Below are positions 21,500-39,020 of a stretch of DNA of 64,000 nucleotides, in pieces. The translations under genes were made by a program, and so were the position numbers. Within the stretch, counting starts at the first letter, position 1, and each line of letters opens with the position of its first letter. Under the pieces are notes generated by a model that saw only the letters and a list, made by a program, of their open reading frames with translations, searched no databases and was not told the origin of the DNA. Source of the DNA: Actinomycetes bacterium (GTDB lineage Bacteria > Actinomycetota > Coriobacteriia > Coriobacteriales > Atopobiaceae); contig JAKPQM010000084.1 of NCBI GenBank assembly GCA_029546925.1, positions 1 to 64,000 of the forward strand. Direction: 5' to 3'.

Positions 21500-21501
21500 G
21501 G

Positions 21502-22143
21502 CTAGCTCCTTCTCCTGATATAGTCCATGACCTTGGCTTCGATGACTTCGGCGCGCGGGCACCACTCGTCGAGAAGCTCCTCGCACACTCTATCGATCCT
21601 CTCGGCGGATTCAGCACAGCCGAGGCTGGCCAGCACCCTGGTGTTGACGAACACGTTGAGGCTCGCAGCCTCGAGGGCGGCACGGCAGAGCAGCGCTCCG
21701 CAGCCCACGTCGGAGAGGAGCATGCGCGAGCCCTTCTCGCACAGCTCCTCGAGCAGGGCGATGGCTTCGCAGCACTGATGCATCATCTCGACGGGAGCGA
21801 CGATGGCGGCGCGGGTGGCCTCCTCGAGCATCTCGGCACGCCTCGGATCCTCCTTGGGGATACCGTAAGCCTGCGAGAGCGGATAGAACGCCGCGGCATC
21901 CTCGTCCACAAGCGCAACCAGACGTCTGCGTATGGCCTCGGCGATCTCCAGCATGCGCTGGATATCGTCCTCATATTGAGCATAGCGTTTCTTACCCGCG
22001 GTGAAGTTGCCCACCATCGATGCGAGCGCCACGCCGAGCGCGCCCGCATAGGCTGCCGCTCCCCCGCCGCCCGGTACGGGCTCTTTAGCCGCGAGGGCAT
22101 CGGCGAATTCGACGCAGCTCTTGTCAGTAAGGGCTTCAGCCAT
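21502..22143 (-). CDS. fchA: Formiminotransferase-cyclodeaminase family protein (methenyl-THF cyclohydrolase)
   Basis: A 213-residue helical protein of the FchA family. The N-terminal region VPGGGGAAAYAGALGVALASM is diagnostic. In clostridia and acetogens FchA supplies the cyclohydrolase step between formyl- and methenyl-THF; in histidine degraders it releases ammonia from formimino-THF. No formiminotransferase gene is present here, so the cyclohydrolase role beside Fhs and FolD is favoured. Its stop is two bases from the folD start. A structured 208-base spacer separates it from fhs. Confidence 0.9.
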   Translation of the reverse strand: MAEALTDKSCVEFADALAAKEPVPGGGGAAAYAGALGVALASMVGNFTAGKKRYAQYEDDIQRMLEIAEAIRRRLVALVDEDAAAFYPLSQAYGIPKEDPRRAEMLEEATRAAIVAPVEMMHQCCEAIALLEELCEKGSRMLLSDVGCGALLCRAALEAASLNVFVNTRVLASLGCAESAERIDRVCEELLDEWCPRAEVIEAKVMDYIRRRS

Positions 22144-22351: not shown

Positions 22352-24025
22352 TTAGAACAGGCCGACGATCCTGCCGTCCTCGGTGACGTCGATCTTCTCG
22401 GCGGCAGGGACCTTGGGAAGGCCCGGCATCGTCATGATGTCGCCGGTGAGGGCGACGATGAAGCCGGCGCCGGCGGAGACCTTGAGGTTGCGTACCGTGA
22501 TGCGGAAATCGCGCGGCGCACCGAGCTTGGTCTGGTCGTCGGTGAACGAGTACTGGGTCTTGGCCATGCAGATCGGGAGCTTGTCGAAGCCCTGATCGGT
22601 GAGGTCCTTGAGCTGCCTGGCCGCGCTGGAGGTGAGGTCGACGCCGTCGGCATGGTAGATCTTGGTGGCGATGGCCTCGAGCTTATCCATGATGGGGGCA
22701 CCGGCATCGTAGGAGAAGCTGAAATCGTTGGGCTGATCGCAGAGGCGGACGACTTCGTCGGCAAGCGCCTCGCCGCCCGCGCCGCCCTTGGCCCAGACCT
22801 CGGAGAGCGCGACGTTGACGCCGAGCTCGTTGCACTTGGCCTCGACGAGATCGAGCTCTGCCTTGGTGTCGGTCGGGAATGCATTGATGGCCACGACCAC
22901 GGGGAGCTTGAAGACGTCTTGGATGTTGGAGACGTGCTGGAGCAGGTTCGGCAGACCGGCCTCGACTGCGGAAAGGTCCTCGGTGCCGAGATCGGCCTTT
23001 GCAACGCCCCCGTTGTGCTTGAGGGCGCGTACCGTGGCGACGAGCACGACCGCGGAGGGTTTGAGCCCGGTCATGCGGCACTTGATATCGAGGAACTTCT
23101 CGGCACCGAGATCGGCGCCGAAGCCGGCCTCGGTCACGACGCAATCGGCGAGCTTCATGGCCGTGGTGGTCGCCTCGACGGAATTGCAGCCGTGGGCGAT
23201 GTTGGCGAACGGGCCGCCGTGCACGAACGCGGGATTGTTCTCGAGCGTCTGGACGAGGTTGGGTTTGATGGCATCTTTGAGAAGAGCCGTCATGGCACCC
23301 TGGGCCTTGAGGTCGCCGCAGGTGACGGGCGTGCGATCGTAGGTGTAGGCCACGACCATGCGGGCAAGGCGGGCTTTGAGGTCGGCGAGGTCGGCGGCGA
23401 GGCAGAAGACCGCCATGACCTCGGAGGCCACGGTGATGTCGAAGCCGTCTTGGCGGGGCATGCCGTCGGCGATACCGCCGAGGCCGTCCACGACGTTGCG
23501 GAGCTGGCGATCGTTCATGTCGACGCAACGGCGCCAGGTGATGCGGCGTGGATCGATGTTGAGGGCGTTACCCTGTTTGATGTGGTTGTCGATCATGGCC
23601 GCGAGCAGGTTGTTCGCGGCACCGATGGCATGGAAGTCGCCGGTGAAGTGCAGGTTGATGTCTTCCATGGGGACGACCTGGGCGTAACCGCCGCCGGCAG
23701 CGCCGCCCTTGACGCCGAAGACGGGACCGAGGGAGGGCTCGCGCAGGCAGAGCATCGTCTTCTTGCCGATGCGGTTGAGACCGTCGGCGAGACCTACGGA
23801 CGTGGTGGTCTTGCCCTCGCCTGCGGGCGTGGGGTTGATGGCGGTCACGAGGATGAGCTTGGCCGATGCGGGTCTATCTTTAAGCGAGTGGATATCAACC
23901 TTGGCCTTGTATGTGCCGTAATGCTCGAGCATATCGTCGGAAAGGCCCACCTTGGCGGCGACCTCCGAGATGGGAAGCATGGTTGCCGCCTGCGCGATCT
24001 CGATGTCGGACTTGATCTCTGCCAT
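22352..24025 (-). CDS. fhs: Formate-tetrahydrofolate ligase
   Basis: ATP-dependent activation of formate to 10-formyl-THF. The 557-residue length and the P-loop [17 protein letters not shown] (about residues 64-80) are diagnostic; [20 protein letters not shown] and HFTGDFHAI are further conserved blocks. It leads the operon fhs-fchA-folD-folE-channel/folC, which would turn formate into methylene-THF for thymidylate and related pathways. The start at 24025 follows AAAAAAGGAGAGAGA. It could also run backward to make ATP from formyl-THF, as in purinolytic anaerobes. Confidence 0.97.
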
Positions 24026-24069
24026 TCTCTCTCCTTTTTTCTGGTGGGCACACATCCGTGCTCGGATCC

Positions 24070-24329: not shown

Positions 24330-24402
24330 ATAACATACACTTTACAAGCTTTCCTGCGGTTTCTTCTAGGAGAAAGCCCAGTTGAGGTTATGGAGTGTAT
24401 GC
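24330..24402. repeat. Palindromic element, family A copy 1
   Basis: The left end ATAACATACACTTTA is conserved; the right end GTGTATGCAAG is degraded from the family GTGTATGTTAT. The inner part GGTTTCTTCTAGGAGAAAGC is nearly identical to copy 3 at 39981-40056. It lies 32 bases past the stop of the MFS gene. Confidence 0.9.
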
Positions 24403-24434
24403 AAGCAGCTGGATGCCGTTGGGCGCGGCGCGGG

Positions 24435-25853
24435 CTACTCGCCGCGCTCTGCCTTCTTGAGTAGGAAAGCGATGGCGAACATCACGGCGTAGGCGACAAG
24501 CGCGATGATCATGGAAGTGCGCATACCACCTGCGGGGTTAGCACCTACGATGAGGGTGAAGAGCGCCACGCCTATACCGCCGCCTAGGTTCTGCCCGAGC
24601 TGGATCACGGAGTTGCCGGTCACGCGGAGTTCGGGAGCGAGCTGAATCTGCGGGGCGGCCGACATGGTGGTCGACGTCTGGGAGTTGTAAAAGCCTACGA
24701 GGAACATCAGCAGGTAGATGACCCAGAGCGGCGTGCCAGGAACGAGCAGGAAGATGAAGCCCACGGTGACGGCGATGCGCACGATGTTGCCGATGACCAT
24801 GAGGGGCTTGGCATCGCCTGACGCTGCAATCTTCTTTCCGAAGATCGGCCCGAGGAAGATGCCGAGGATGGCGGATGCGGTGGTGGCGAGGCCTGCGGCA
24901 AGCGCAGGGCCGAGGGTGAGGGAGAGCGGATCCTCCGCGAGGACACGCATGATGAAGCCGGGGATGAAGAACGTGACCGTCATGGCGCCGAAGTTGTGGA
25001 GCAGGTTGGAGACGGCGAGCACGAGGACGTTGCGGTCCTTGATGGCGCTTGACGGCACGATGGCTGTGTCACCCTTCTTGCGGATGACCGCAACGAGAGC
25101 GATGAGCGCGATCACCGAAGCGATGAACAGGGCGGTGTTGGCCGTGCCGCCGAACGGAAGATAGTTGCCGCCCATCGAGAGAGCCAAGATGAGGCAGCCG
25201 AGGAAGATGGTGACGGCGATGCCGCCGGACCAGTCGAACGAGTTCTTGGCGTCGCTTGCGGGGAACGCGTCGTCGGAGACGCGGGCGCCCATGAGGTTGA
25301 GCGCGGCACCGATTGCGAGCAGCGCGGCCAGCAACCAGCAGAGCACACGCCAGCCCAGACGATCGATGATGATGCCGCCGAGGAACGGCCCCACGAGCAT
25401 GGCGATGGACATCATGGTTCCGACGAGGCCCAGATAGACGCCCACTTCCTTCTGGTCGAAGAGGTCGCGGATGGTTGTGAGGCCCACGGCGAATACGCCT
25501 GCGGACACGAAGCCCCAGAAGATGTTCGCGATGATGATGACGAACATGTTGGGTGCAAGGGCGCGGACGGCGAGCACGACGGCGCCGATCACGAGGCCGA
25601 GCGCGGTAAGCAGGGGCTTCTTAGCGGGGTCGCGAGCAGCGAGGAAGCCGAAGATGGGCATGAGGCAGATGGATAGCACGCCGGAGATGGACTGCGCCAC
25701 GCCATAGATGTCTTGGCCGCCGATTTCGGCGGCAGCGGCGGGAAGCATCGTGGCGTTGGTGGTGGAAACCATGAGGTTGCCGATGATGGCAAGGTAGATG
25801 CCTGCGAGCGTCATCATCTTCTTGTTGCGTGGAACGCTCTGATAGGGGTTCAT
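24435..25853 (-). CDS. MFS transporter, drug/small-molecule exporter type
   Basis: A 472-residue major facilitator protein with about 12-14 hydrophobic segments. The loop after segment two has GFLAARDPAKK, and GPFLGGIIIDRLGWR is the antiporter-like motif C/D region typical of DHA-type proton antiporters. The start at 25853 follows GAGAAGGGAATCC. It is downstream of the PanB-like gene, with only a hairpin between them, so it may import the substrate or export the product of the accessory pathway. Direction and ligand cannot be read from sequence. Confidence 0.88.
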   Translation of the reverse strand: MNPYQSVPRNKKMMTLAGIYLAIIGNLMVSTTNATMLPAAAAEIGGQDIYGVAQSISGVLSICLMPIFGFLAARDPAKKPLLTALGLVIGAVVLAVRALAPNMFVIIIANIFWGFVSAGVFAVGLTTIRDLFDQKEVGVYLGLVGTMMSIAMLVGPFLGGIIIDRLGWRVLCWLLAALLAIGAALNLMGARVSDDAFPASDAKNSFDWSGGIAVTIFLGCLILALSMGGNYLPFGGTANTALFIASVIALIALVAVIRKKGDTAIVPSSAIKDRNVLVLAVSNLLHNFGAMTVTFFIPGFIMRVLAEDPLSLTLGPALAAGLATTASAILGIFLGPIFGKKIAASGDAKPLMVIGNIVRIAVTVGFIFLLVPGTPLWVIYLLMFLVGFYNSQTSTTMSAAPQIQLAPELRVTGNSVIQLGQNLGGGIGVALFTLIVGANPAGGMRTSMIIALVAYAVMFAIAFLLKKAERGE

Positions 25854-25881
25854 GCGGATTCCCTTCTCTATTTGGACAAAT

Positions 25882-25908
25882 GGGCTGCAGGGTTTGCCCC
25901 CGCAGCCC
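25882..25908 (-). terminator. Hairpin between PanB-like gene 1 and the MFS gene
   Basis: GGGCTGC at 25882-25888 pairs with GCAGCCC at 25902-25908. It has no T-run, so it may attenuate rather than fully stop transcription into the MFS gene. Confidence 0.5.
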
Positions 25909-25927
25909 GTACCGGTTCGCCAATCGG

Positions 25928-26803
25928 CTAATGGATGTCCTTGTCGAGCATGTCGTTGAACTTCTCGAGTTCGGCGGGATCCATGTGCCAGCCGTGCTCC
26001 TCCTGCGGGTAGGCGCCTTCCTTGACCTCGTGGTCGAAGCCCATGTAGCCCTTCATGGCTTCGGCGGCGACAGAAGCGTAGGCCTTGGAGTGCTTGGCCA
26101 TAGCCTCGGGAGGCAGGAAGCCCATGAGGTCGAAGATAACGAGCTCGGAACCGTCGGCGGCACCGCCTGCGGCGACCTCGATCACGGGGATGGCGAGCTT
26201 GGCGGCGATTGCATTGGTAACCTCGATGTTGGTCATCTCGATGGTCATACCGCACATGCCGTTCTCCTGGTACTCATAGGCCATACGCCAGATCTTGTAG
26301 GCGTCCTCGGCAGTCTTGCCTTGGCGGCGGTATCCGCCGAACTGGCCGGTCTGCCAGCCGGAGAGGCAGCCCACGTGGCCGAAGACGGGAACGTAGTTCG
26401 CGCTCATGCAGGCAAGCGTCTCGTTGGTGACGCCCATGCACATGACGGAATCGGCGCCATCGGCGAGGATCCGCGAGCCGCACTCGATCGCCGTGGGGCC
26501 ATCCTTGTATTGCGGAGTCTGCATGACGGCGTTCAGGCACACGTTGGGAGCCATCTTGCGGATAGCGCGGGTCCACCACGAGATATTGCGTTCGCGGTCT
26601 GCGCAGGTCTCGCCGGGAGCGGTGTAGCGCACGAGGTCGATGCCGGCTTTCTCGGCGAGGCTCGACCAGAGGGGATCCATGTAGGCGGTGCCCACCATGG
26701 AGATCTTCTCGCCCTTGTTCTTCATCTGCTGGAGGTGCCAGATGGTCTTGCGGCCGGTGGAGAGGGGCATCATCTCGATGTTGCTGTTCTTGCCGGTAGC
26801 CAT
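25928..26803 (-). CDS. PanB-family paralogue with altered active site (1)
   Basis: A 291-residue TIM-barrel protein of the ketopantoate hydroxymethyltransferase family. Matching blocks are VFGHVGCLSGWQTGQFGGYR (140-159), RQGKTAEDA, TIEMTNIEVTNAIAAKLAIP and the C-terminal GAYPQEEHGWHM. PanB's catalytic Glu is kept as Glu189 and the conserved His as His143. The three metal-binding acidic positions of PanB (Asp45, Asp84, Glu114 in E. coli) fall in LVRYTAPG, CLNAVMQ and VMCMGVT and are not acidic. It therefore probably does not make ketopantoate and has a different, unknown reaction. It is paired with an SDR upstream; a paralogue lies at 34495-35376. Confidence 0.85.
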   Translation of the reverse strand: MATGKNSNIEMMPLSTGRKTIWHLQQMKNKGEKISMVGTAYMDPLWSSLAEKAGIDLVRYTAPGETCADRERNISWWTRAIRKMAPNVCLNAVMQTPQYKDGPTAIECGSRILADGADSVMCMGVTNETLACMSANYVPVFGHVGCLSGWQTGQFGGYRRQGKTAEDAYKIWRMAYEYQENGMCGMTIEMTNIEVTNAIAAKLAIPVIEVAAGGAADGSELVIFDLMGFLPPEAMAKHSKAYASVAAEAMKGYMGFDHEVKEGAYPQEEHGWHMDPAELEKFNDMLDKDIH

Positions 26804-26850
26804 GATCGTTCCTTTCGTCCTGTTGCATGCGTATGGTCGTGAGATCGGGT

Positions 26851-27792
26851 CTATTCCTCGGCGGGGCCGGGGATGCAGCCGGGAACGGTGGTGGAGAAGG
26901 GCTTGCGCTGGGTGTTGAGCAGAGCACCGCCGTTGACGTCCACCGTGGCACCGTTCATGAAGTCGGACGCGCTCGTGCAGAGCACGTAGACCATGAGGGC
27001 GACTTGGTCGGGGTTGAATGCCAGGGGAACCGGAGATGCCTCGCGCATGGCCAGCTTGAGGGCGTCGTACTCCTCACCGTAGACGCTGCTGTTGGCACGT
27101 CCCTCGAAGAAGACGCCGCGGGAGAGCATGCCGCCGGGAGCCACGCAGTTCACGTTGATGCCGTACTGCATCAGCTCGGCTGCGGCGCCGACGGTGAGGG
27201 CGCAGACGCCTGCCTTCGCGGCCTGGTAGTAGGTGTTCATGCCCACGCCGCGCGGGCCCTCGCCCAGATGCGCAGCCGAGGAGATGAAGACGATCTTGCC
27301 CTTGGTCTTGTTGGCCACCATGTTGCGGGCGACGGCCTGACCCATGAAGTAGGATCCCTTGAGGTCGACGTCGAGGACGCGGTCGTAGGTGGCCTCGGTC
27401 ACGTCGAGGTAGGCCTGCTCATCCCAGCCGGCAGCAGAGGTGACGAGGATGTCGACGTTGCCGAAGGTCTCGACGGCGAAGTCGACAGCGGCATAGCATG
27501 CCTCGACGGAGCTTACATCGGTAGAGATGAACGCCGCCTCGTAACCGCGCTCCTTGAGCGTCTCGGCGGCCGCGTTGCCGCGCTCGGGGTTGCGACTCGC
27601 AATGACAACCCTGGCACCTGCCTCGGCGAGGCGGTTGGCCACGTTGAAGCCGAGGCCGGTAGCCCCGCCGGTCACGATGGCAACCTTACCGGTTAGGTTG
27701 GTGAGCGCGTCCGCGAGCGGGGCGCATCTGTCGATGGTGCCGAACGCCATCGTCTCGGGATCGGGCATCTGACGTGCGGAATTGTCTGCCAT
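26851..27792 (-). CDS. Short-chain dehydrogenase/reductase (1)
   Basis: A 313-residue classical SDR. The cofactor motif is TGGATGLG (41-48), the catalytic Ser is at 171-172 (FISSAA) and the pair is Tyr189/Lys193 (YYQAAK); NVNCVAPGGM follows. An N-terminal extension of about 34 residues and a C-terminal tail are longer than usual. It is closely related to the SDR at 35797-36699, including the extension and VNCVAPGGM, so the two are paralogues. It lies 47 bases upstream of the PanB-like gene on the same strand. Substrate unknown; a secondary alcohol or ketone intermediate of the local pathway is likely. Confidence 0.9.
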   Translation of the reverse strand: MADNSARQMPDPETMAFGTIDRCAPLADALTNLTGKVAIVTGGATGLGFNVANRLAEAGARVVIASRNPERGNAAAETLKERGYEAAFISTDVSSVEACYAAVDFAVETFGNVDILVTSAAGWDEQAYLDVTEATYDRVLDVDLKGSYFMGQAVARNMVANKTKGKIVFISSAAHLGEGPRGVGMNTYYQAAKAGVCALTVGAAAELMQYGINVNCVAPGGMLSRGVFFEGRANSSVYGEEYDALKLAMREASPVPLAFNPDQVALMVYVLCTSASDFMNGATVDVNGGALLNTQRKPFSTTVPGCIPGPAEE

Positions 27793-27875
27793 GGAACCCT
27801 CCTTCGTGTAGATCTTCTGCGGTCAGCCTGATGGCTTGGTCAGAAGATATCCGCGCGCGGAAGGCCATGCACTAA

Positions 27876-28718
27876 TCACGATTGCGTAGACGAGGTGCGC
27901 TTCCTGCCCTGAACGGTCGATTCCTGGAGCTTGGCAAGAAGCTCGCCCTGGCTACTCACGCCGAGCTTGGCATGGATGTTCGAAACGTGCTTGTAGACGG
28001 TGCGCCGCGAGATGCGCAGCTTCTCCGAGATGGACTTGGGCGATTCGCCGCGCATGAGCATCGTGCAGATCTGCCGCTCACGTTCGGTAAGCGGGATGCC
28101 GCTCGCCATAAGGCCGATGGTGTCGCCGGCGGTAGAGGGTGGATTGCCGAACATCTTGCGGCACATGTTGTCCAGATGGGTGGAGACGAGCGAGAGCGTG
28201 GCCCGCTCGTCCGCCGTGAAGGTGACGGGGCGCGTACGGTCGATGCAGAAGAGCACGCGGGCCCTGCCCCTGCTGTCACAGAGCTTGAATCCCGTGCTGT
28301 ACGTGAGGCCGAGCCTCGACACATGGTCTCGGTAAAACTGCGTGTCGTGGGGTTCTCGGGACCAGTCCATCACCTTGATTTCCTGTCTCGACACCCTCAT
28401 CCCCTGCTCGATGCCCTCGTCATCAGATATGACGCTCTCCCGGGCTTTGTCCCGCAAGCGCTTTATGGCAGAGTAGCGGTTCTGATCCACACCGCTGTAG
28501 TACTCGTGGTACTCCTTGGTGATCTTCTTGCTCACACCCAGAAGATGCTCGTCGAACACGCAGCCGTCCTCATCGAACAGATACACGCGGCCTTGGTCGA
28601 AGGAGACCACCTTGCGGAGCCGGTTGAGGGCATTCACGCAAAATGGGATAAGATCGTCGTATGCGCCAACCTGTAGGAGATACTCGTTGAGCTTGTCCCA
28701 CTGCGCTTGCGATGGCAT
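27876..28718 (-). CDS. LuxR-type transcriptional regulator (1)
   Basis: A 280-residue regulator with an N-terminal sensory domain of about 190 residues and a C-terminal LuxR helix-turn-helix: LTERERQICTMLMRGESPKS, then RISRRTVYKHVSNIHAKLGV. The sensory part has no receiver Asp or autoinducer-binding signature and is shared with three other regulators in this window. The start at 28718 follows GGCGAGGGAC. It is upstream of and divergent in spacing from SDR 1 (83-base gap, same strand), so it probably controls the SDR-PanB-MFS genes. Part of its HTH coding sequence is nearly identical to LuxR 3. Confidence 0.9.
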   Translation of the reverse strand: MPSQAQWDKLNEYLLQVGAYDDLIPFCVNALNRLRKVVSFDQGRVYLFDEDGCVFDEHLLGVSKKITKEYHEYYSGVDQNRYSAIKRLRDKARESVISDDEGIEQGMRVSRQEIKVMDWSREPHDTQFYRDHVSRLGLTYSTGFKLCDSRGRARVLFCIDRTRPVTFTADERATLSLVSTHLDNMCRKMFGNPPSTAGDTIGLMASGIPLTERERQICTMLMRGESPKSISEKLRISRRTVYKHVSNIHAKLGVSSQGELLAKLQESTVQGRKRTSSTQS

Positions 28719-29498
28719 GTCCCTCGCCTTTCCCCGAATCTCGGTAACCCATGCATAGCATAATCGGCGGAAAGCGCAATAAGCAAACGTGAGCAGGATC
28801 AGAAGAGCGTGCGCCCCTCCATCGCCGCTAGGGCGAGCGTCGTGCACATCGATGACGCCTCGGCACACAGGTCGGCGGAGAGCTAGCACTCGCGACGACG
28901 CACTTGGACAATTCTGCTGTGCATGCGGGCCAAAGGCATGGGAAATTCATATCGTTCCAGCAGCTATCTGCTCGGAGCATTCGTGGATCTGGAAAACGGC
29001 GTCGCTTCAAGCCCATCCATACTTGTCTTCGTCGAACTTACTCGCATCATACACCCACTTGGTATCGGGAATGGAACATTGCGGGCGCTTCCTGCGCGGC
29101 TCCAACGACTTGCGGAGCGACCGCGTAGCATGTGTCATGCGACAGTGCGGCCTACCACGTTTTCGGTATCATGCTCCGTGGAATGAAAGCGAACCTCAAT
29201 CGCAATGGCGAGGAATACTTCCAATAGGATGTCATCATCTAATCTGCAGTGAAACAGGGCACCGCTCCAAGAGCACAGATATCTCGAAGCGTTCGCGGAG
29301 ACATGGGCGCAGGTTGTGTCGGACAAACGGCGTGCTATGAGCTTGTCGGCGCTCATGTCGGGCTCCCCACGAAAGCATCGGAATCGCTTGGAACCCGTAT
29401 CGGAACCATGAAAACATGCTCAACTGGATTTCATCTAGAGAGATACCCGATGATTCCACAAAGAGTATAGTTTGCTGACACAAAGGGGGTGCAACGCA
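28719..29498. other. 780-base spacer without a gene
   Basis: It lies between two divergently transcribed LuxR genes. ORFs here have improbable composition and no family motif. The right end has a possible -10 TATAGT at 29466-29471 for the plus-strand LuxR gene. The middle is less GC-rich than its neighbours and may be decayed sequence. Confidence 0.5.
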
Positions 29499-30302
29499 AT
29501 GAAGGTTATCGAAATCGACAGCATCGAAAACATCCCTTGGGCCAAGATCAACGCCCTGCTCCTCGCATGCGGCGGCGAGCGCGAGCCCAAGAGGCTCATC
29601 GAGACCTTCATGCGCGAGATCGCAGGCATCGTGCCCTTCGACTCCGCCCGTGCCTTCCTCACCAACGGCGAGGGCACCGTGGAGGGCATCGTCTCGCTCG
29701 GCATCGCCGAGAAGTGGAACAAGAGCTACCGCAGCTACTTCTCCTTCGTGCGCGGTGGACGCTATTCCATGGTCGAGGACGGCCCTTCGATCGCAGACAT
29801 GGGCATGAAATTCGCTGCGGCACCCGATACTGCGGATTGCTTCCTCTACGACTGGTCGCAAGGATTCGACGATCAGGGCTTCCAACAGGACTATCTCGAA
29901 CCGCAAGGCATCGTGTACGTGCTGGGCTGCAACCTCTTTGATGCGCACGAAAGGCACTGGTGCACCGTCATGTTCGAACGGGGCAGGCTCGGAGCCTTCG
30001 ATCGGCGCGATCTCGCAACCTTCGCGCTGCTTGCAGCCCATCTGGGCAACATGGTGAAGGGCCTCTTCACCATCCCGCGCAAGGAATGGGCGCCTATCGA
30101 GGGCATCAAGCTCACGCCGCGCGAGCGCGAGGTGGCCCTGCTTATCCTACGCGGCCTCACGGCCCCCGCCATCGAGAAGCGCCTCGTCATCAGCAGGCGC
30201 ACGGTCTACCGCCACATCGCAGGACTCCACAAGAAGCTCGACGTGCACACGTACGCCGAGCTTATGCTCGCTCTCGAAGCCATTGAGGACGAGCTGCGCT
30301 GA
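29499..30302 (+). CDS. LuxR-type transcriptional regulator (2)
   Basis: A 267-residue regulator with an N-terminal sensory domain and C-terminal HTH (LTPREREVALLILRGLTAPA, then ISRRTVYRHIAGLHKKLDV). It is more diverged from LuxR 1 and 3, which resemble each other. The start at 29499 follows AAAGGGGGTGCAACGCA; the upstream in-frame ATG at 29472 has no ribosome site. It converges with the DapB-like dehydrogenase gene, with a shared hairpin between them, and may regulate that gene or the divergent hydrolase. Confidence 0.9.
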   Translation: MKVIEIDSIENIPWAKINALLLACGGEREPKRLIETFMREIAGIVPFDSARAFLTNGEGTVEGIVSLGIAEKWNKSYRSYFSFVRGGRYSMVEDGPSIADMGMKFAAAPDTADCFLYDWSQGFDDQGFQQDYLEPQGIVYVLGCNLFDAHERHWCTVMFERGRLGAFDRRDLATFALLAAHLGNMVKGLFTIPRKEWAPIEGIKLTPREREVALLILRGLTAPAIEKRLVISRRTVYRHIAGLHKKLDVHTYAELMLALEAIEDELR

Positions 30303-30308
30303 GAGCGC

Positions 30309-30338
30309 GAGGCTGGCCCCACGAAGGAGGCCGGCCTC
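30309..30338. terminator. Hairpin between convergent LuxR 2 and DapB-like genes
   Basis: GAGGCTGGCC (30309-30318) pairs with GGCCGGCCTC (30329-30338) with one G-T pair. It lies in the 58-base convergent gap and can act on both strands. No T-run. Confidence 0.5.
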
Positions 30339-30360
30339 GGGATCGAGGTGTCTTCGGTCG

Positions 30361-31497
30361 CTACCTCTTGACGGCGCAGACCTTGTGGGCGAAGGAAGTC
30401 ATGTCGCTGCGGAAGACCGCAGAGGGCTTGGGCATGGCGATATCGTGCACGGTAACGATACCGGGCTTGGCAGCGACGACTTCGGGGATGGCGTTCATGA
30501 GGCGCATACCGGTGAGCACGTAGCCCTCGTAGGAGAGCTCCTCGGGATGCTCGGGCACCGAGACGTTCATGTCGGCTTGGAGGTTGGGGTCGCCCTCCAC
30601 GGTCACGCGGATCTGACCCACGCGGTCGGTCATGGGCCAGTCGGGCTCAATGCCCTGTTCCATGCGATTGACGTGCTCGAGCACGATGGCCTCGCGGCCG
30701 TTGATGTAGCCGCTCGTGCGCATGCGGATGGCTGCGACCTCGCCCGGCTCGATGGTGCCCCAGCCCACGGGGATGACGTGATCGGTAGTGCGCTTTTCGT
30801 AGGTGGACTCCATGCGCTCGATCTCATAGCCAAGATAATTGGCGATGTGGCGTACCGTGATACCCCAGATCATGTCGAGCATGCTCGGATCCTCGAACAT
30901 GCACGTATACTCCATCGGCTCGCCAAAGCCGTACGGCAACGACAGCTCCTGCTTCACAGGCGCCGTGCTGTAGTTGTACATCTCGGAGATGGTGAGGCGC
31001 TTGATGGTGTTGGAGCAAGACGCGAGCAGGAAAGCCTGCGACTCGGCGTAGCCCGGCTCTTGGCCGTTCATGTAGATGGAGGCCCCGCCGGCCTCGCCTG
31101 CGGCTTGCATGGCGGCCACGAACTCGGGGCTCACGGCACCCTTGGGCCAGAGCAGGTCGCCCACGGAGGGGGTCACCACGTTGATGCCGCGCGTGAGCAG
31201 CTTGGCGTACCACTCGCCGTTGACCGCCATCGCGGCGCGCGGGTCGCGCACGTTGATGACCATAATGGCGCAGTCGGGCGCTAATGCGAAGATATCCTCC
31301 TCGTCGCCGGTGATGGTGATGCCGCAGGGCTCATAGCCGTCGAGCAAGCCCGCATCGGTGCCGATGAGATGGCCGGCCGTCTCCTTGTGAGCCCACACGC
31401 CCACGAGCTCCATGTCTTCCCTGCCTTGGATGCAGCGGCACACGATACCGCCGATGTTGCCGGTGCCGATGACGACGACACGCAGTTTCTCTGCCAT
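30361..31497 (-). CDS. DapB-like NAD(P)-dependent dehydrogenase
   Basis: A 378-residue oxidoreductase with an N-terminal Rossmann domain (VVVIGTGNIGG, residues 7-17) and the dihydrodipicolinate-reductase-like fold seen in 2,4-diaminopentanoate dehydrogenase and related amine or amino-acid dehydrogenases. It is over 100 residues longer than true DapB and lacks its KxxK-type substrate motif, so it is not assigned to lysine synthesis. The start at 31497 follows GAGAGGGGATTTCACC. It is divergent from the alpha/beta hydrolase across 258 bases. A role in oxidising or reductively aminating a pathway intermediate is inference. Confidence 0.75.
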   Translation of the reverse strand: MAEKLRVVVIGTGNIGGIVCRCIQGREDMELVGVWAHKETAGHLIGTDAGLLDGYEPCGITITGDEEDIFALAPDCAIMVINVRDPRAAMAVNGEWYAKLLTRGINVVTPSVGDLLWPKGAVSPEFVAAMQAAGEAGGASIYMNGQEPGYAESQAFLLASCSNTIKRLTISEMYNYSTAPVKQELSLPYGFGEPMEYTCMFEDPSMLDMIWGITVRHIANYLGYEIERMESTYEKRTTDHVIPVGWGTIEPGEVAAIRMRTSGYINGREAIVLEHVNRMEQGIEPDWPMTDRVGQIRVTVEGDPNLQADMNVSVPEHPEELSYEGYVLTGMRLMNAIPEVVAAKPGIVTVHDIAMPKPSAVFRSDMTSFAHKVCAVKR

Positions 31498-31755
31498 GGT
31501 GAAATCCCCTCTCACGTAGTGGATGGCGGCGTACCGCCGCTGCTTGGCTCCATCATGGAGAGGAGCACGGTCTCTCGTTAATGGTCAAAGTTAACCAATT
31601 GAGCGGAAATCCATGCGTGTGGGCACGAAAGGAGTGCCGAGGGCATAGCTGCCTACATAACAGTTGGTATTGCCCGTGCGACGTGCTGCGGGATATGGTG
31701 CGCACAGGTCGATCAGACTGCGTAAACCCCGAGGAACCATACAAAGGAGAGAGCC

Positions 31756-32547
31756 ATGAGCACGAGCGAGAGCACCCCCGCCTTCGCCATCTACGAGCCC
31801 CACACCATCGACCTCGCACCCGGCAGCGCAACCTTCGTGCTCGTCCCCGGCGCCGGCCACGGCGCTTGGTGCTACGACTTCGTCAAGAAGATCCTTGAGG
31901 ATGCCGGCCAAGAGGTGCACGCCCTCTGTCTGCCCGGTGTAGGCGAACGCGCAGCCGAGCTCACTGTGGAGACCGGCCATGAGGACCACGTGCGCTCCGT
32001 CGTGGACTACATCGTCGAGCACGACCTCGCTGACGTTATCCTCGTGGGCCACAGCTACGGCGGCACCGTCATCACCGGCACGGCCGACCGCGTGGCCGAG
32101 CGCATCAAGCGCATGGTCTACCTCGACGCCGTCCACCCGTCCGATGGCCAGAACATGCCCGAGGCCCAGCCGCTCCTTGCCTACACCCCCGTGGTCGCCA
32201 ATGCCTACGACAACAACGGCGTCATGTGCAACATGTTTGATCTCGAGGAGACCGTCGAGTTCCTCGGCCTCCTCGACGGGGACCAGGCCGCCTTCGCGCG
32301 CACACGCCTCACACCGCACCCCTGGAAGTCGTTTACCGACCATCTGCACCTCACGAACCCCGAGGCGCTCGCAGCCATCCCCAAGACCGACATCTACACC
32401 GACACCACCATCGGCGGCCTGCTCGCCACCGGGTTCGCCACCGTCGAGGAAGCTCAGAACTCGCTGGTCATTGCATCGGGTCACGACCTCATGATCATCG
32501 AGCCCGAACTCACGGCCAACATGCTCCTCTACGTAGCGACGCTCTAG
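31756..32547 (+). CDS. Alpha/beta hydrolase (methylesterase/hydroxynitrile-lyase-like)
   Basis: A 263-residue hydrolase. The oxyanion block is VLVPGAGHGAWCY, the nucleophile is Ser100 in VGHSYGG, and the C-terminal SGHDLMIIEPELTANML holds the catalytic His in the pattern of plant methylesterase/salicylate-binding-protein-like enzymes. Likely reactions are hydrolysis of a small ester or C-C/C-N cleavage of a plant-type compound. The start follows AAAGGAGAGAGCC. It is the only plus-strand enzyme of the accessory region, converges with LuxR 3 and diverges from the DapB-like gene. Confidence 0.88.
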   Translation: MSTSESTPAFAIYEPHTIDLAPGSATFVLVPGAGHGAWCYDFVKKILEDAGQEVHALCLPGVGERAAELTVETGHEDHVRSVVDYIVEHDLADVILVGHSYGGTVITGTADRVAERIKRMVYLDAVHPSDGQNMPEAQPLLAYTPVVANAYDNNGVMCNMFDLEETVEFLGLLDGDQAAFARTRLTPHPWKSFTDHLHLTNPEALAAIPKTDIYTDTTIGGLLATGFATVEEAQNSLVIASGHDLMIIEPELTANMLLYVATL

Positions 32548-32565
32548 CGGCTCTTCGCAACACCG

Positions 32566-32596
32566 GGGGCCGGATGGCGCACTGCTATCAGGCCCC
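32566..32596 (+). terminator. Hairpin after the alpha/beta hydrolase
   Basis: GGGGCC at 32566-32571 pairs with GGCCCC at 32591-32596, with further GAT/ATC pairing inward, then TTCCCT. It lies 19 bases past the stop codon and can serve both convergent genes. Confidence 0.55.
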
Positions 32597-32623
32597 TTCC
32601 CTATGGCGCCGGAGCGCAGTTGA

Positions 32624-33421
32624 TCAGCTCCGCTGCGTGGCGGCGCCCAACTTGCTCACGAGTTCGAGCTGGCTCGTCACGCCGAGCTTGGCATGGATGT
32701 TCGAAACGTGCTTGTAGACGGTCGCCCGCGAGATGCCGAGCTTCTCGGCGATGCGCTTGGGCGACATGCCCGCGAGCAGGAGCTTCGAGATGTCGAGCTC
32801 GCGCGCGGTGAGGCCGAAGCCGCCCTGCTCGAGCGCGATGGTATCGCCGTGCGCGGATGGCGGCATCACGAAGAAGTTGCGGAAGAGGTTGTCGAGATGA
32901 TGGTTGAGGAGGCTCAGCATCTCGCGCTCCCCTGCAGTGAAGGGCCCCGACTCCTCGGTACGGTCGAAGGAGAAGAGAGCCCGCGCGAGGTCGTCAAGAT
33001 CGAAGAGGGCGATGCCCGTGGAGTAGCGAATCCCCAGCTGGGAGATATACTCGCGATAGAAGCGCGTGTCGTGGGACTCCTTCTCCCAGTCCTTCACGAA
33101 TATACGGTAGGGCGAGTGGCTCGCATCGCGCTTGATGATCTCCCGGCGCACCTGGGCCAAGCGAGTCATCGAATATGCGCCGCCGTCTGACTCCCCGTAA
33201 ATCTCATGGTACAGACGCACCTTATTGCGCGTAACGCCCTCGAGATGCTCGTCGAACACCTTGGCGGAGTCGTCGAGGAAGAAGATGCTGCCACGGTCGA
33301 AGGGAACGAGCTTCCTGATCTCGCGGAGGGAGAGGATGCAAAACTCGTACGAGTCACGCACCGAACCGCAGGCGAGCGCGGCGGCATCGACGGATCTCAG
33401 TTGTTCGAGCGTCAGCGCCAT
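32624..33421 (-). CDS. LuxR-type transcriptional regulator (3)
   Basis: A 265-residue regulator with the same plan as LuxR 1: sensory domain (PFDRGSIFFLDDSAKVFDEHLEG matches VFDEHLLGV in LuxR 1), then HTH LTARELDISKLLLAGMSPKR and SRATVYKHVSNIHAKLGV. About 40 bases coding for the recognition helix end are nearly identical between this gene and LuxR 1, pointing to recent duplication or gene conversion. It lies downstream of the SDR 2 gene, separated by a family A palindrome, and converges with the hydrolase gene. Probable local regulator. Confidence 0.9.
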   Translation of the reverse strand: MALTLEQLRSVDAAALACGSVRDSYEFCILSLREIRKLVPFDRGSIFFLDDSAKVFDEHLEGVTRNKVRLYHEIYGESDGGAYSMTRLAQVRREIIKRDASHSPYRIFVKDWEKESHDTRFYREYISQLGIRYSTGIALFDLDDLARALFSFDRTEESGPFTAGEREMLSLLNHHLDNLFRNFFVMPPSAHGDTIALEQGGFGLTARELDISKLLLAGMSPKRIAEKLGISRATVYKHVSNIHAKLGVTSQLELVSKLGAATQRS

Positions 33422-33463
33422 GGCGAACCCCTCTGGTGCGGAACAATGGGAGAAGGGCGATTA

Positions 33464-33534
33464 CCATACACTTTAAACGTCCAACTGGGGTTCTTTCCAG
33501 AAGAAACCCCAGTTGGGCCGGATTAGTGTATGTT
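33464..33534. repeat. Palindromic element, family A copy 2
   Basis: The ends are CCATACACTTTAAA and GTGTATGTTG. The centre is the cleanest inner palindrome of the family: CCAACTGGGGTT and AACCCCAGTTGG are exact complements. It lies 21 bases beyond the stop codon of SDR 2. Confidence 0.9.
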
Positions 33535-33555
33535 GATCGCGGGCAATCTGCGCTA

Positions 33556-34401
33556 TTACGTGAGCTCCATGCCCAGCATATCGGGTAGCTGGCCGGTGAG
33601 CGTTGCAGCCTCGAGGCCCCAGTCTACGATGAGGCAGTGGCCCGAGACGTACTCGGCGAGGTCGCTGCCCAGATAGAGACAGGCCTTACCCATGACGGAC
33701 GGGTCGGCGATGGGCTTGCTGTTTCCCACACTGGCCTCGAACTGCTTCCTGGCGCCCGGCATGGCCTCGTAGAACTCGGTCATGAAGCGCGACCCCGTTG
33801 AGCAGGGCAGCACCGCGTTGATACGCACATCGCGCGCTGCGAGCTCGGCGGTCTTGGAGGCCACGAGGAAGTTCATCGCACGTTTGGCCAGTATATATGC
33901 CATGTTGCCGCCCGCATCGTCCATGTCGAGATCGTGAATAGCGTCGATGGTGGCGTCCCAGCCGTCCGCCTCCACGATGTCGCGGTACTCGTCGATGAGC
34001 TCCTCCTTGGCCCAGCGCACGCCCGCTGTGGAAGTGACGAAGGTGATCGATCCACCCGGCACCACGCGCTCGGCGAGGTAGGTGTCGAGCAGGTACTTGT
34101 TGGCGACGAAGTCGATGATGAAGGTGTCGACGTAGCCGTTCTTGACGCCCGAGACGCCCGCCACGCCGAAGAAGCGGTCGATCTTGGCCGGCAGCTGAGC
34201 GAAGGCCCCGTCGATGGAGTCGCGCGAGACTTGGTCGAGCTTGACCCAGTCCGTCTGCCCCTCGATCGCTGCCTCTCCCCTGCTGGCGGTCCAGACCTCG
34301 GCCCCGCAGCCCACGAGCATCTCCGCCAGCGCGCGGCCCATGCCCGAGCTCGCGCCCGTGGCCACGCACACCTTGCCTGCATAACCCAGATAATCGGTCA
34401 T
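33556..34401 (-). CDS. Short-chain dehydrogenase/reductase (2), 3-alpha-HSD/carbonyl-reductase-like
   Basis: A 281-residue SDR with TGASSGMG (15-22), Ser124 (TSTAG) and Tyr169/Lys173 (YILAK). A 35-40 residue helical insertion between the Ser and Tyr blocks, then MAYILAKRAMNFLV and RINAVLPCSTGS, recalls 3-alpha-hydroxysteroid dehydrogenase/carbonyl reductase of Comamonas, where a similar insertion precedes YAGSK. The substrate could be a steroid-like or other bulky ketone, but this is not proven. It lies 93 bases after PanB-like gene 2, with two hairpins between them. Confidence 0.88.
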   Translation of the reverse strand: MTDYLGYAGKVCVATGASSGMGRALAEMLVGCGAEVWTASRGEAAIEGQTDWVKLDQVSRDSIDGAFAQLPAKIDRFFGVAGVSGVKNGYVDTFIIDFVANKYLLDTYLAERVVPGGSITFVTSTAGVRWAKEELIDEYRDIVEADGWDATIDAIHDLDMDDAGGNMAYILAKRAMNFLVASKTAELAARDVRINAVLPCSTGSRFMTEFYEAMPGARKQFEASVGNSKPIADPSVMGKACLYLGSDLAEYVSGHCLIVDWGLEAATLTGQLPDMLGMELT

Positions 34402-34418
34402 GTTCGCTCCTTATAGGA

Positions 34419-34482
34419 AGGGCGGCGCACGTCACCGCACGCCGCCCTGGATTGGGACAAAAACCAGCGGGCCTTTTGTCCC
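34419..34482. terminator. Two hairpins between PanB-like gene 2 and SDR 2
   Basis: First hairpin: AGGGCGGCG (34419-34427) with CGCCGCCCT (34440-34448). Second: GGGACAAAA (34454-34462) with TTTTGTCCC (34474-34482). Both are exact 9-bp stems following the PanB-like stop on the minus strand, and could reduce read-through into SDR 2. Confidence 0.6.
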
Positions 34483-34494
34483 ACCGTCGATGTG

Positions 34495-35376
34495 TTAGCC
34501 CTCGAAGGCGTCCATCATGGTGTTGAACTTCTCGAGTTCCTCGGGATCCATGTGGTAGCCGTGCTTGTCCTCGGGGTAGTCGCCCTCGCGCACGTCCTCG
34601 AGCCAGCCCATGTAGGCCTCGCACAGGAACGGCAGCAGCGCGGCGTAGCTCTTGGAGTGGGACGCCGGCTTGGGCATGACGCCGAAAGTATCCATGTCGA
34701 CCATCTCGGAGCCGTCGCATGCGGCACCGCCGGCGATGGATACCACGGGCACGCGGAGTTTCTCGGCGATGGCCTGGGAGACCTCCATGGGCGTGAGCTC
34801 GATGGTCATGCCGCCCATACCGTTCTCCTGGTACTCATAACCCCATTTGAAGATCTTGAAGGCGTCCTCGGCGGTCTTGCCGACGCGCTTGTAGCCGGTG
34901 GCGTTGGTCTGCCAGCCGGAGATGGCGCCGATATGGCCGTAGGTCGGGACGTAGTTGTCGCTCATGAACTTGAGAACGTCGTTGGTGACACCCATGGGAA
35001 GCATGGAGTCGGCACCGTGGAACACGAGCTCGGCGCCGTTCTTCACGGCGTCGACCTTGTCGGCGTACATGGAGATGGGCATGTAGAAGTTGATGTGGAT
35101 GATCTTGCAGTACTCGCGGAACTTCTTGATGGTGAGACGGGAGCCGATCTTGTCCTCTTCGGCGGTGGTGCCGGTGCGGGTGGAGATCATGTGCGGGATG
35201 CGGCAGATGTCGCAGCCCACCATCTCGGCTGCCAGCGCGAAGAAGGGGCCGAGCTCTGCGGGGCACATCTGGACGATCTTCTCGCCCTTGTCCTTCATCT
35301 TCTGCAGGTAATCGAGGTTCTTGCGGGATTTCGAAACGGTTGACATCTTGATGTCGGCATGCTCGTTGTCGGCCAT
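34495..35376 (-). CDS. PanB-family paralogue with altered active site (2)
   Basis: A 293-residue relative of the product of 25928-26803: KMKDKGEKIVQ, YGHIGAISGWQTNATGYKRV, VGKTAEDAFKI, TIELTPMEVSQAIAEKLRVP and KHGYHMDPEELEKFN align closely. The family catalytic Glu is Glu193 and the conserved His is His148. As in paralogue 1, the positions of PanB's metal ligands are non-acidic (ICRIPHM, IHINFYM, MLPMGVT). The start at 35376 follows AAAGGAACCGCC. It is flanked by a 71-residue protein upstream and SDR 2 downstream on the same strand, so a PanB-like/SDR pairing occurs twice in this region. Confidence 0.85.
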   Translation of the reverse strand: MADNEHADIKMSTVSKSRKNLDYLQKMKDKGEKIVQMCPAELGPFFALAAEMVGCDICRIPHMISTRTGTTAEEDKIGSRLTIKKFREYCKIIHINFYMPISMYADKVDAVKNGAELVFHGADSMLPMGVTNDVLKFMSDNYVPTYGHIGAISGWQTNATGYKRVGKTAEDAFKIFKWGYEYQENGMGGMTIELTPMEVSQAIAEKLRVPVVSIAGGAACDGSEMVDMDTFGVMPKPASHSKSYAALLPFLCEAYMGWLEDVREGDYPEDKHGYHMDPEELEKFNTMMDAFEG

Positions 35377-35796: not shown

Positions 35797-36699
35797 TCAC
35801 GCGTGGAGGCCGCCCTCCATCGTGTAGCTCCATGGCTTCGTTTGGAAGCTGAAGCCCGCACCGCCGTCCACCTCGACGACCTTGCCGTACATGAAATCGG
35901 AGACGGACGTGCACATGGTGAGGATCATGCGCGCCATCTCATCCGGAGTCGACGCGACAGGCGTGTCCTTACCGCCGGCCATGCTATCTGCCTGCCATTC
36001 GGCCCCGTAGCGTGCAACCGTCTCGACGCAGTTGGCGATCGCGCCCGGAGTGACCATGCCGCCGGGGGCGACGCAGTTCACGTTGATGCCGTACTGTTTG
36101 AGCTCCTTGGCGATGCCGCGCGTCATGCCGATGACGCCGGCCTTGGCGGCGTTGTACGGGGTCATCATGGCGAGATGCGCCATGTCCTCCCCGCGGTAGG
36201 CAACCGAGGCGATGGTAACGATCTTGCCGCCATGCTTCGCCCTGACCATGGACCGGGCCGCCGCTTGCACGAGGAAGTACTGGCCTTTCATGTCGGTATC
36301 GACGATATCGTCGTAGAGCTCCTCGTCCATATCGAGGAAAGCGCGGGCCTGCCACGTGGCGGCGACGGGCACGCAGATATCGACCGGACCGAACCGTTCC
36401 TCGGCGAAGGCGACAAGAGCTTGGCAATCTGCTACGTCGCGCGTATCGAGCTGCTTGAAGGCCACATCCTCGTAGCCGAGGTCGTTCAGGGCCTTGATGG
36501 CCATCTCTCCCCACTCCTCAGAACGGGCGCCGAAGACGACCTTGGCGCCGCACTCGAGCAGGCGGTTGATCACGAACAGGGCAAGACCGACCGAGCCTGA
36601 GACCACGGCAACCTTGCCCGAGAGATCGAACACATCTGCGATGGGTTCGACATCCTCCAGGGCATCGGCAGACATATCGAACAGATCTTCTTTGTCCAT
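35797..36699 (-). CDS. Short-chain dehydrogenase/reductase (3) with disrupted glycine motif
   Basis: A 300-residue SDR, paralogous to SDR 1 (shared N-terminal extension, YGINVNCVAPGGM, DFM-G-VVEVDGG end). It keeps Ser165 and Tyr182/Lys186 (YNAAK). The cofactor motif is abnormal: VVSGSVGLAL (33-40 region) replaces VTGGATGLG, losing one residue and two glycines, and the usual NAG is PVAATW. Cofactor binding may be changed or lost; it could act with SDR 1 as a heteromer. It is the first gene of the SDR-small protein-PanB-like-SDR string. The start follows GGAAAGGGGTCTCC. Confidence 0.87.
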   Translation of the reverse strand: MDKEDLFDMSADALEDVEPIADVFDLSGKVAVVSGSVGLALFVINRLLECGAKVVFGARSEEWGEMAIKALNDLGYEDVAFKQLDTRDVADCQALVAFAEERFGPVDICVPVAATWQARAFLDMDEELYDDIVDTDMKGQYFLVQAAARSMVRAKHGGKIVTIASVAYRGEDMAHLAMMTPYNAAKAGVIGMTRGIAKELKQYGINVNCVAPGGMVTPGAIANCVETVARYGAEWQADSMAGGKDTPVASTPDEMARMILTMCTSVSDFMYGKVVEVDGGAGFSFQTKPWSYTMEGGLHA

Positions 36700-36948: not shown

Positions 36949-37365
36949 CTACTGTGCGCATGCCCGAGCGCGGATCTTGTTCTCGCGCACGTCACGCTCG
37001 AGGAAAGCCAGATCCTCGCCGAAGAAGCGCCTCATCTCCTCGACGGTCGAGCCTTGACGCTTGGCCATGGCCTTCGCCTCGGCGAGAAGCTCCTCGGGTG
37101 TGACCGTGATATCGAGCTTTGCGGCGAGATCGCGCAGCACGAGCGGTTCCTTGGCTTCGAAGAGCGCTGCGGCACGCAGCTCGTCCTCCTGCTCGGCAAG
37201 CTCCGCATCGGGAAAGACGTGCGTCTCTCCCCCGGTCATATGCGCATACATCATGCGATGCTTCATATCGGCGCGCACGAGCCTGTACTCCTCCTCGATA
37301 CGCTCCTCAGGCACCTCGATATCGTAGCCGACCACGTACCGATGCCATGCCTCCTCGTTGATCAT
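36949..37365 (-). CDS. Trigger-factor C-domain-like chaperone protein
   Basis: A 138-residue, all-helical, highly charged protein. YDIEVPEERIEEEYRLVRADM and DITVTPEELLAEAKAMAKRQ, then STVEEMRRFFGEDLAFLERDVRENKI, follow the pattern of the trigger factor/SurA chaperone domain (VPE...I..E, then VTxEEL.AE...MA, then L..D.R..K). The ribosome-binding and PPIase domains are absent. The start at 37365 follows GGGAGGTGCGCG and overlaps the GroEL-paralogue stop by 4 bases, so the two are translationally coupled. Likely a client-holding partner of that chaperonin; this role is inference from context. Confidence 0.7.
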   Translation of the reverse strand: MINEEAWHRYVVGYDIEVPEERIEEEYRLVRADMKHRMMYAHMTGGETHVFPDAELAEQEDELRAAALFEAKEPLVLRDLAAKLDITVTPEELLAEAKAMAKRQGSTVEEMRRFFGEDLAFLERDVRENKIRARACAQ

Positions 37366-39020
37366 CGCGCACCTCCCACATGGAATGCCTCGGCCAGGTT
37401 GACGTCTCCGCCCTTGACGGGCGTGACGCCCGCCTCGGTCACGAGCAGCGTCTCGGCGACCGAGAAGGCCGCTTCGAGCGCGCTGCGGGTCACGCGCACC
37501 GGGTCGATGATGCCCGCCTCGAACATGTCCACATACTCGTTGCGCGAGGCATCGAAACCCGTGCCCTCCGGCAGCTCGCACAGCTTCTCGACCACCACGC
37601 GCCCGCTGGCACCCGCGTTCTCGGCAATACGGATGGCGGGGACTTTGAGCGCCTCGATGGCGATGGCGGCTCCTGCACGCTCGTCGCCCTCGAGCGTTGC
37701 GGCAAGCTTCTCGAGAGCGGGCACCAGCTCGAGCAGCGCCGTGCCGCCGCCGGCGACCACGCCCTCCTCGTAGGCGGCGCGCGCTGCGCTGACGGCATCC
37801 TCCACGCGCATCTTGCGCTCCCACTGCTCGGGCTCGGTGGCCCCGCCCACCGCGATGGTCGCCACGCCCGAGACGAACGAAGCCAAGCGCTCCTCGTGGC
37901 GCTTGCGGTTGAACTCGTAGTCGGTATTCTCGGCACGGTAGCGTAGCTCTGCCACGCGCTTGGCGATGGCCTCGGGATCCCCGTGCCCGCCCGAGATGAT
38001 CGTGCGCTTGCGCGTGACCTTCACATGGTCGGCGGAACCGAGCATCTCGCGCGTGACCTCGCGGATGGAGAGCCCCATCTCCTCGCTCACGTACATGCCG
38101 CCCGTCTGCACCGCGATATCGTCCATGCGCCAGCGGCGGCCCTCGCCATAGGCGGGTGCCTGCACGCAGGCCACGTTCATATCGCCCTCGAGCTTGTTGC
38201 GCATGACGAGGGCCAGCGCATCGTCCTCGATGCCGTCGCAGAGCACGAGTATGTCGCGGCCATCCTCGGCGGCGCAGATGAGCGCGGGGATGATGTCCTG
38301 CGGATTCTCGAACTTCTTGTCGGTGATGAGGATATAGGGGTTCTCAAGCACGGCCTCGCCGGAACGGGTATCGGTCGCCATGTGGGGGGAGAGGAGCCCC
38401 CGATCGAAGACGATGCCCTCGTCAACGGTGAGCTCGGTCTCCGTGCGCTGCGAATCGTCCACATTGACGACGCCTTCGAGGCCCACACGGTAGATAGCCT
38501 CCCCCACCATGGTGCCAAGCGGCTCGTCTTGGCAGGAGATGATGGCAACGTGCGCGATGTCCTCCTGCGTCTCGACGGGCACGGCAGATTCCGCGAGTTT
38601 CTCCACGGCAAGCTCCCCCGCCTTTTTGATACCACGGCGGAGCGCCAACGGATCAGCACCTGCAACGATATTTTTGAATGCACCGTGGAGAATGGCCTGA
38701 GCGAGCACGATTGCCGTGGTGGTACCGTCGCCCGTCTCGTCGTTGGCCTTGACGGCGGCCTCCTTCATGAGCTGCGCGCCCATGTTCTTGACGGGATCGG
38801 AGAAGGAGATCTCCTTGGCGATGGTCACGCCGTCGTTGGTGATGAGCACATGCGCCCCAGCCCCCGTCTGTGCGCCGTAATCAGCGCCATACAGGTTGGC
38901 CTTCTGGTGCAGCGCGATGTTGCGCCCCTTGGGTCCAAGCGTCGCGCTTACAGCAGACGCGAGCTCATCGACTCCTGAAAGCAGTGCCTTACGTGCGGCA
39001 TCACCGCGAATGATCGCCAT
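37362..39020 (-). CDS. groL: Divergent GroEL chaperonin paralogue
   Basis: A 552-residue Hsp60. ATP-site blocks TLGPKGRN (28-35) and GDGTTTA (98-104) and the C-terminal [20 protein letters not shown] are intact, so ATPase function is plausible. Differences from E. coli GroEL: an insertion of about 13 residues in the stem-loop region after [10 protein letters not shown] ([18 protein letters not shown]); loss of the Gly-Gly-Met tail; and RGLLSPHM in place of RGYLSPYF, changing aromatic residues used for GroES and client binding. No groES is nearby. It lies 18 bases after a LuxR gene with no CIRCE element, suggesting specialised, non-heat-shock expression. Confidence 0.92.

Follow-up and report, generated by a model that had tools for sequence, protein, structure and literature searches.

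Divergent PanB relatives with altered metal-site residues and their conserved gene neighbourhood in gut bacteria

Ketopantoate hydroxymethyltransferase (PanB, EC 2.1.2.11, PF02548) is the closest described relative of two proteins, here called PanB*-A and PanB*-B, which are encoded in a stretch of 64,000 nucleotides (the window) of an Actinomycetes bacterium of the Atopobiaceae (assembly GCA_029546925.1, contig JAKPQM010000084.1, positions 1 to 64,000). Residues are numbered according to E. coli PanB, in which we take D45, D84, K112, E114, H136 and E181 to have active-site roles, namely D45, D84 and E114 as metal ligands and H136 and E181 as catalytic residues. The PanB* proteins resemble PanB in fold, in homology over the full length and in the invariant His136 and Glu181. 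They differ from it in hydrophobic residues at the positions of D84, K112 and E114, a remodelled D45 loop, scores below the PanB equivalog cut-off, the absence of a pantothenate pathway and other gene neighbours.

Three further systems are related to parts of the locus. The PEP mutase/isocitrate lyase superfamily (e.g., PrpB) is a distant fold match (E about 1e-7, 10% identity), and its acidic metal site is absent in PanB*. The anaerobic catabolic cluster cprTKZEBACD encodes the predicted chaperones RdhD/E and the trigger-factor homologue RdhT (PMC3306737). Like these cpr/rdh reductive dehalogenase clusters of Desulfitobacterium, the PanB* loci encode predicted chaperones of their own, one of them homologous to trigger factor, but they lack a reductive dehalogenase, have a LuxR instead of a CRP regulator, and have a different enzyme to fold. 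Lastly, the genes of the FolD-FchA-Fhs pathway, which leads from tetrahydrofolate (THF)-bound one-carbon (C1) units to formate, adjoin PanB* in several lineages, and the pathway is not known to be linked with such a PanB relative. A full-text search of open-access papers revealed no prior description of the PanB* gene set, in which a modified form of a known fold is combined with two private chaperones, an unusual arrangement.

Family, fold and active-site residues of PanB*

The two PanB* genes of the window are:
25928..26803, minus strand: PanB*-A, 291 aa, member of a second, deeply diverged PanB* subfamily (PF02548, 147.3 bits; separate clade in the tree together with the second copy of Lactonifactor, L111)
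34495..35376, minus strand: PanB*-B, 293 aa, member of the main, widespread PanB* subfamily (PF02548, 142.8 bits; residues, predicted fold and tree)

The original prediction had described both as PanB paralogues, and this was confirmed. Both open reading frames (ORFs) are real, intact and full-length, and PF02548 covers the whole length of both proteins (147 and 143 bits versus a cut-off of 28.7). For the PanB equivalog TIGR00222 the scores were 102.9 bits (PanB*-A) and 79.8 bits (PanB*-B), below the cut-off of 207.6. In the class sample, canonical PanBs had bit scores of at least 222 (fragments excepted) and PanB* proteins of 142-146. Solved PanBs were the sole relatives of both window proteins in a PDB sequence search. 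Comparison of a predicted structure with PanB, which had been proposed as a check, was performed for PanB*-B. The AlphaFold 2 (AF2) model had a mean pLDDT of 88 and a pTM of 0.82, and a Foldseek search revealed PanB as the top match by far (best-fitting chain 1oy0, TM 0.86, rmsd 2.5 A), while PrpB-type enzymes were the next structural matches (TM about 0.5).

A scan of 84,980 genomes yielded 51 PanB*-related loci, in Coriobacteriia and Clostridia, and the carriers are bacteria of animal guts from two phyla, Actinomycetota and Bacillota. The phylogeny versus true PanB, the second proposed check, placed PanB* in a single clade that is set apart from canonical PanB by a 100/100 branch of about 3.5 changes per site. 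The family is cleanly separated from 23 canonical PanBs. Sequences of the two phyla are intermixed inside the PanB* tree, and thus the genes probably moved between Actinomycetota and Bacillota. PanB*-A and PanB*-B fall into separate, old subclades, and the closest grouping of PanB*-A is with the second copy of the cultured Lactonifactor longoviformis DSM 17459, which has two PanB* loci (L035, L111). A same-family genome carries a PanB* gene with an internal TAG (G217, C8:2778-3515), yet it lies about 3 kb from Fhs; it may be a decaying gene or a sequencing error.

Active-site positions were compared in an alignment of 53 family members. The position of D84 is occupied by Tyr, Val or Phe in 45, 5 and 3 members, respectively, that of E114 by Met in all 53, and that of K112 by Leu in 52 and Met in one. 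H136 and E181 are kept in 53/53, in agreement with the earlier observation that the His (143/148) and the Glu (189/193) are retained in the window proteins. The D45 loop aligned poorly, with a gap in one window protein, a His in the other, and no conserved acid across PanB*. The claim that all three metal ligands have become non-acidic is therefore firm for D84 and E114, which are replaced by hydrophobic residues in all PanB*, and probable for D45, where the alignment is loose. The six positions are invariant among the full-length canonical PanBs that were aligned. A larger alignment showed the same clean split: 24 canonical rows read D-S-D-K-E-H-E, and the 87 PanB* rows (some of them duplicates) retain only H-E.

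Other residues are new in the family. Asn82 and Glu212 are invariant or nearly so, and position 80 is His in all PanB* except for the group of PanB*-A of the window, where it is Cys. In E. coli PanB, residue 212 forms part of the wall of the substrate pocket, and with the exchange I212A a benzyl 2-oxoacid is converted to 90% instead of 6% (PMC7611260). The metal might have been swapped rather than lost: His80, Asn82 and Glu212 could, together with His136 and Glu181, hold, e.g., Zn2+, and PanB* would be a class II aldolase that acts on a larger aldehyde without a role of folate. The near-invariance of these three new residues favors this explanation, as does the replacement of His by Cys in the PanB*-A group, both being capable of binding Zn, but Asn is a poor metal ligand, and we regard a swapped metal as rather unlikely.

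A further PanB-like type was found in locus L112 (7742-8545; also in L093). It has Pro, Tyr and Thr at the positions of D84, K112 and E114, respectively, and has kept His136 and Glu181. The L112 gene is situated within a cluster of sugar-type ABC transporter genes and Gfo/Idh-like genes.

PanB* could also perform other chemistry on the PanB fold, as an isomerase, hydratase or decarboxylase, or could be a non-catalytic binding protein. In favor of this are the loss of the oxoacid/metal site, the great length of the branch that leads to canonical PanB, and the L112 type, which likewise lost the ligands in a different genomic setting. However, the invariance of Glu181 and His136 in all members argues for acid/base chemistry retained at the same place, and this option is unlikely.

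An identity as ordinary or slightly divergent ketopantoate hydroxymethyltransferase accords with the PF02548 match and the fold, but was rejected due to the loss of D84, K112 and E114 in all members and the missing PanC, and is extremely improbable. PanC was not found in 44 of the 49 PanB* genomes searched, including the window's own genome, indicating that PanB* does not make pantothenate there. Only three of the PanB* genomes encode a canonical PanB; in two of them its gene adjoins panC, away from PanB*. The proposal that the proteins are neofunctionalised was thus supported, as all members of the family, which is monophyletic, share the loss of these residues and most of the genomes are PanC-less. 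PanB* passes the cut-off of PF02548 ("ketopantoate hydroxymethyltransferase"), and naming on that match alone would wrongly credit PanC-less genomes with pantothenate synthesis.

Conserved partners and window-specific genes

The following partner genes surround PanB*-A and PanB*-B; SDR denotes short-chain dehydrogenase/reductase, and homologue counts were taken over 58 PanB* loci:
35797..36699, minus strand: SDR3, partner SDR of PanB*-B (Pfam SDR; homologue in 44/58 loci)
26851..27792, minus strand: SDR1, located 47 bp upstream of PanB*-A as its partner SDR (Pfam SDR; homologues of 82% identity next to the PanB*-A-like genes of L021/L048)
33556..34401, minus strand: SDR2, third SDR, downstream of PanB*-B (Pfam; homologue in 10/58 loci)
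37362..39020, minus strand: GroEL*, locus-specific second GroEL (own lineage, 100/100)
36949..37365, minus strand: TF*, stand-alone C-terminal domain of trigger factor, 138 aa (PF05698)
39039..39797, minus strand: LuxR4, regulator of the core module (same-family LuxR near 26/28 full-flank PanB* loci)
27876..28700, minus strand: LuxR1, paralogous regulator, upstream of SDR1-PanB*-A (GerE domain; homologues of 54-68% identity next to the PanB*-A-like genes of L020/L021/L048)
32624..33421, minus strand: LuxR3, paralogous regulator, homologous to the other LuxRs
29472..30302, plus strand: LuxR2, more distant paralogous regulator (GerE domain)

Partners within 8 kb of PanB* were counted in the 28 loci with full flanks. 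LuxR and SDR genes were present in 26/28 each, GroEL* and TF* in 25/28 each, and all four together in 21/28. The original prediction had correctly listed SDR genes beside each PanB paralogue and three LuxR genes, but it overlooked the second groEL and the trigger-factor-C gene, which are the conserved partners. Both are located just outside its coordinates, as is a fourth LuxR.

GroEL* is the second GroEL copy in most PanB* genomes searched. GroEL* of the window is 45% identical to the housekeeping GroEL of its genome and has kept the ATPase motif GDGTTTA, but it has no GGM tail. Its score is above the cut-off for PRK00013 (570 bits) and just below that for TIGR02348 (559 versus 582.1 bits). 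In the tree, a 100/100 branch separates 36/36 GroEL* from 20 GroELs that are encoded at other places in these genomes.

TF* shares with trigger factor only the C-terminal domain. PF05698 was matched by 14/14 members (best 1.7e-23) and was the sole match of these proteins of about 140 aa; the ribosome-binding and peptidyl-prolyl isomerase domains are absent. Among 248 class genomes, high-scoring TF* was found in only two, both of which carry PanB*; the third PanB* genome of this set, with the PanB* copy that has an internal TAG, had no TF*. GroEL* and TF* may be private folding helpers with PanB* and/or the SDR as clients.

Part of the region is specific to the window:
24402..33461, no strand: extra block of 9.06 kb with MFS, PanB*-A, SDR1, LuxR1-3, DapB-like and alpha/beta hydrolase genes (blastn collinearity on either side)
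24435..25838, minus strand: MFS transporter, window-specific partner (PF07690)

According to blastn, the block is missing from the same-genus locus L003 (Coriobacteriales bacterium OH1046). The DapB-like, alpha/beta hydrolase and MFS genes are present in the region as had been predicted, but homologues were found in only 0, 0 and 1 of the 58 loci, respectively, and they were therefore rejected as conserved pathway members. The MFS genes of other PanB* loci differ and are barely related to that of the window.

The block is flanked at both ends by copies of a 70-bp palindromic element, ACATACACT-N52-AGTGTATGT, which occurs at the following positions:
24333-24402, 33464-33533, 39984-40053, 48444-48513 and 49774-49843: copies in the window
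5386-5455 and 11832-11901: copies in L003

Fhs, LuxR3 and LuxR4-GroEL* each have a copy upstream. Of the six occurrences of the core pattern CATACACT..AGTGTATG in the 2.4-Mb genome, five are in the window and one is on contig C2, which also contains a weaker additional copy. Because the copies on C2 adjoin ligA and GH3-like genes, a mobile or recombination repeat is at least as likely as a shared operator. A 407-aa ORF without a Pfam match (48513-49736) lies exactly between two copies.

Linked C1 genes and proposed function

In the window, PanB*-A, the MFS gene and the following C1 genes have the same orientation:
22352..24055, minus strand: Fhs, formate-tetrahydrofolate ligase (PF01268, 899 bits; near PanB* in 15/48 genomes)
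21502..22143, minus strand: FchA-like methenyl-THF cyclohydrolase (sequence reading; linked homologues)
20645..21520, minus strand: FolD, methylene-THF dehydrogenase/cyclohydrolase (sequence reading; linked homologues)
17864..20053, minus strand: formate/nitrite transporter joined in one ORF to a FolC-like domain of the Mur ligases (PF01226, 237 bits; PF02875/PF08245)

The last gene is a single ORF of 729 aa, and its two parts are separate genes in L003; it may be a true fusion or an assembly error.

Fhs was observed at most 15 kb from PanB* in 15/48 genomes versus 0.9 expected at random, and for Bacillota alone in 4/27 versus 0.58 (P=0.002), by a statistic that ignores relatedness within phyla and contig ends. 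The layouts vary; in L106, for example, FolD-FchA-Fhs is divergent from LuxR-SDR-MFS-SDR-PanB*-SDR-PanB*-TF*. Further C1 genes near some PanB* loci encode MTHFS, FolE, a GcvT-like protein, SHMT and an MtaA-like methyltransferase.

Two additional gene families were noticed. A conserved family of about 400 aa with the motif EARGCGxxHCRxxAE is encoded near PanB* loci (L029 148-1365, L048 2532-3773, L109 12270-13586, L026 2128-3366), adjoining a PucR-like gene and sometimes a relative of GcvT-like demethylases; a Pfam/NCBIfam search with one member gave no match. Also without a Pfam/NCBIfam match was a gene that recurs beside GcvT-like genes (c18, AF2 pLDDT 42), which was not used.

The linkage to C1 genes fits a loss of C1 units to THF and formate. 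We tentatively favor the possibility that PanB* is a PanB-derived C-C lyase/transferase in a pathway of SDR oxidation and subsequent C1 removal, with the C1 unit passed to THF/formate. A LuxR-type regulator would sense the compound and switch on SDR, PanB*, GroEL* and TF*, the latter two of which would fold PanB* and/or the SDR. The SDR would convert a hydroxyl of the substrate to a ketone. PanB* would then use the kept Glu181/His136 half-site, without a Mg2+/2-oxoacid site, to remove the hydroxymethyl group next to the ketone by a retro-aldol reaction or a retro-hydroxymethyl transfer. The C1 unit would be taken up by THF, and where Fhs-FchA-FolD and a formate channel are linked, it could leave as formate with a gain of ATP. 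On the simplest reading, the SDR supplies PanB* with another ketone of greater hydrophobicity, and hydroxymethyl chemistry is retained. E. coli PanB accepts free formaldehyde, tolerates bulky products and forms quaternary centres (PMC7610986).

An undescribed pathway with a retro-aldol or C1 step, as suggested in the original prediction, is plausible and finds backing in the Fhs/FchA/FolD linkage; from the gene content and the conserved residues we infer catalytic activity, direction, C1 chemistry, metal-free catalysis and LuxR regulation. That the substrate is a plant-derived compound with a hydroxymethyl ketone is a guess, and the lignan/lignin literature provided no direct link.

Several observations weigh against C1 removal by PanB*. 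E. coli PanB, a class II aldolase, depends on a metal (PMC4814558) and is inactivated by EDTA, which serves to prevent retro-aldol cleavage (PMC10127515), whereas PanB* would have to stabilise an enolate without the metal. The majority of the Clostridial loci have no C1 gene nearby, which would suit a metal-swapped aldolase, but the linkage of Fhs beats chance in both phyla, within the limits of the statistic named above. Fhs was found in 215/248 class genomes, so its mere presence is uninformative and was dropped as evidence, and only proximity counts. The PDB and NCBIfam matches of the SDRs were too unspecific to give a clue to the substrate.

The reaction might also run forward: PanB* would add a hydroxymethyl group from methylene-THF, supplied from formate via Fhs, and the SDRs would reduce the product, in a biosynthesis or as an electron sink. 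Addition is the physiological direction of PanB, Fhs fixes formate, and several SDRs are present per locus. However, the mosaic spread over gut phyla, the LuxR control, the MFS genes and the varied SDRs look catabolic, and a conserved biosynthetic partner is absent, making the forward direction improbable.

The most novel form of the favored C1-removal reading is doubtful: a descendant of PanB that needs no metal, with a GroEL and a trigger-factor C-terminal domain of its own as folding helpers, would strip the hydroxymethyl groups of ketones that the SDR has made from plant compounds, and would pass the C1 units to THF/formate, in a widespread anaerobic gut pathway. With its exchanged metal ligands and lysine, its retained Glu and His and its own chaperones, PanB* would represent a novel type of enzyme, and its GroEL* would be unusual as a chaperonin dedicated to one client. 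The family makes it possible to test directly if the PanB fold requires a metal for C1 chemistry, and it points to a transformation in the gut, not described so far, that would release C1 units.

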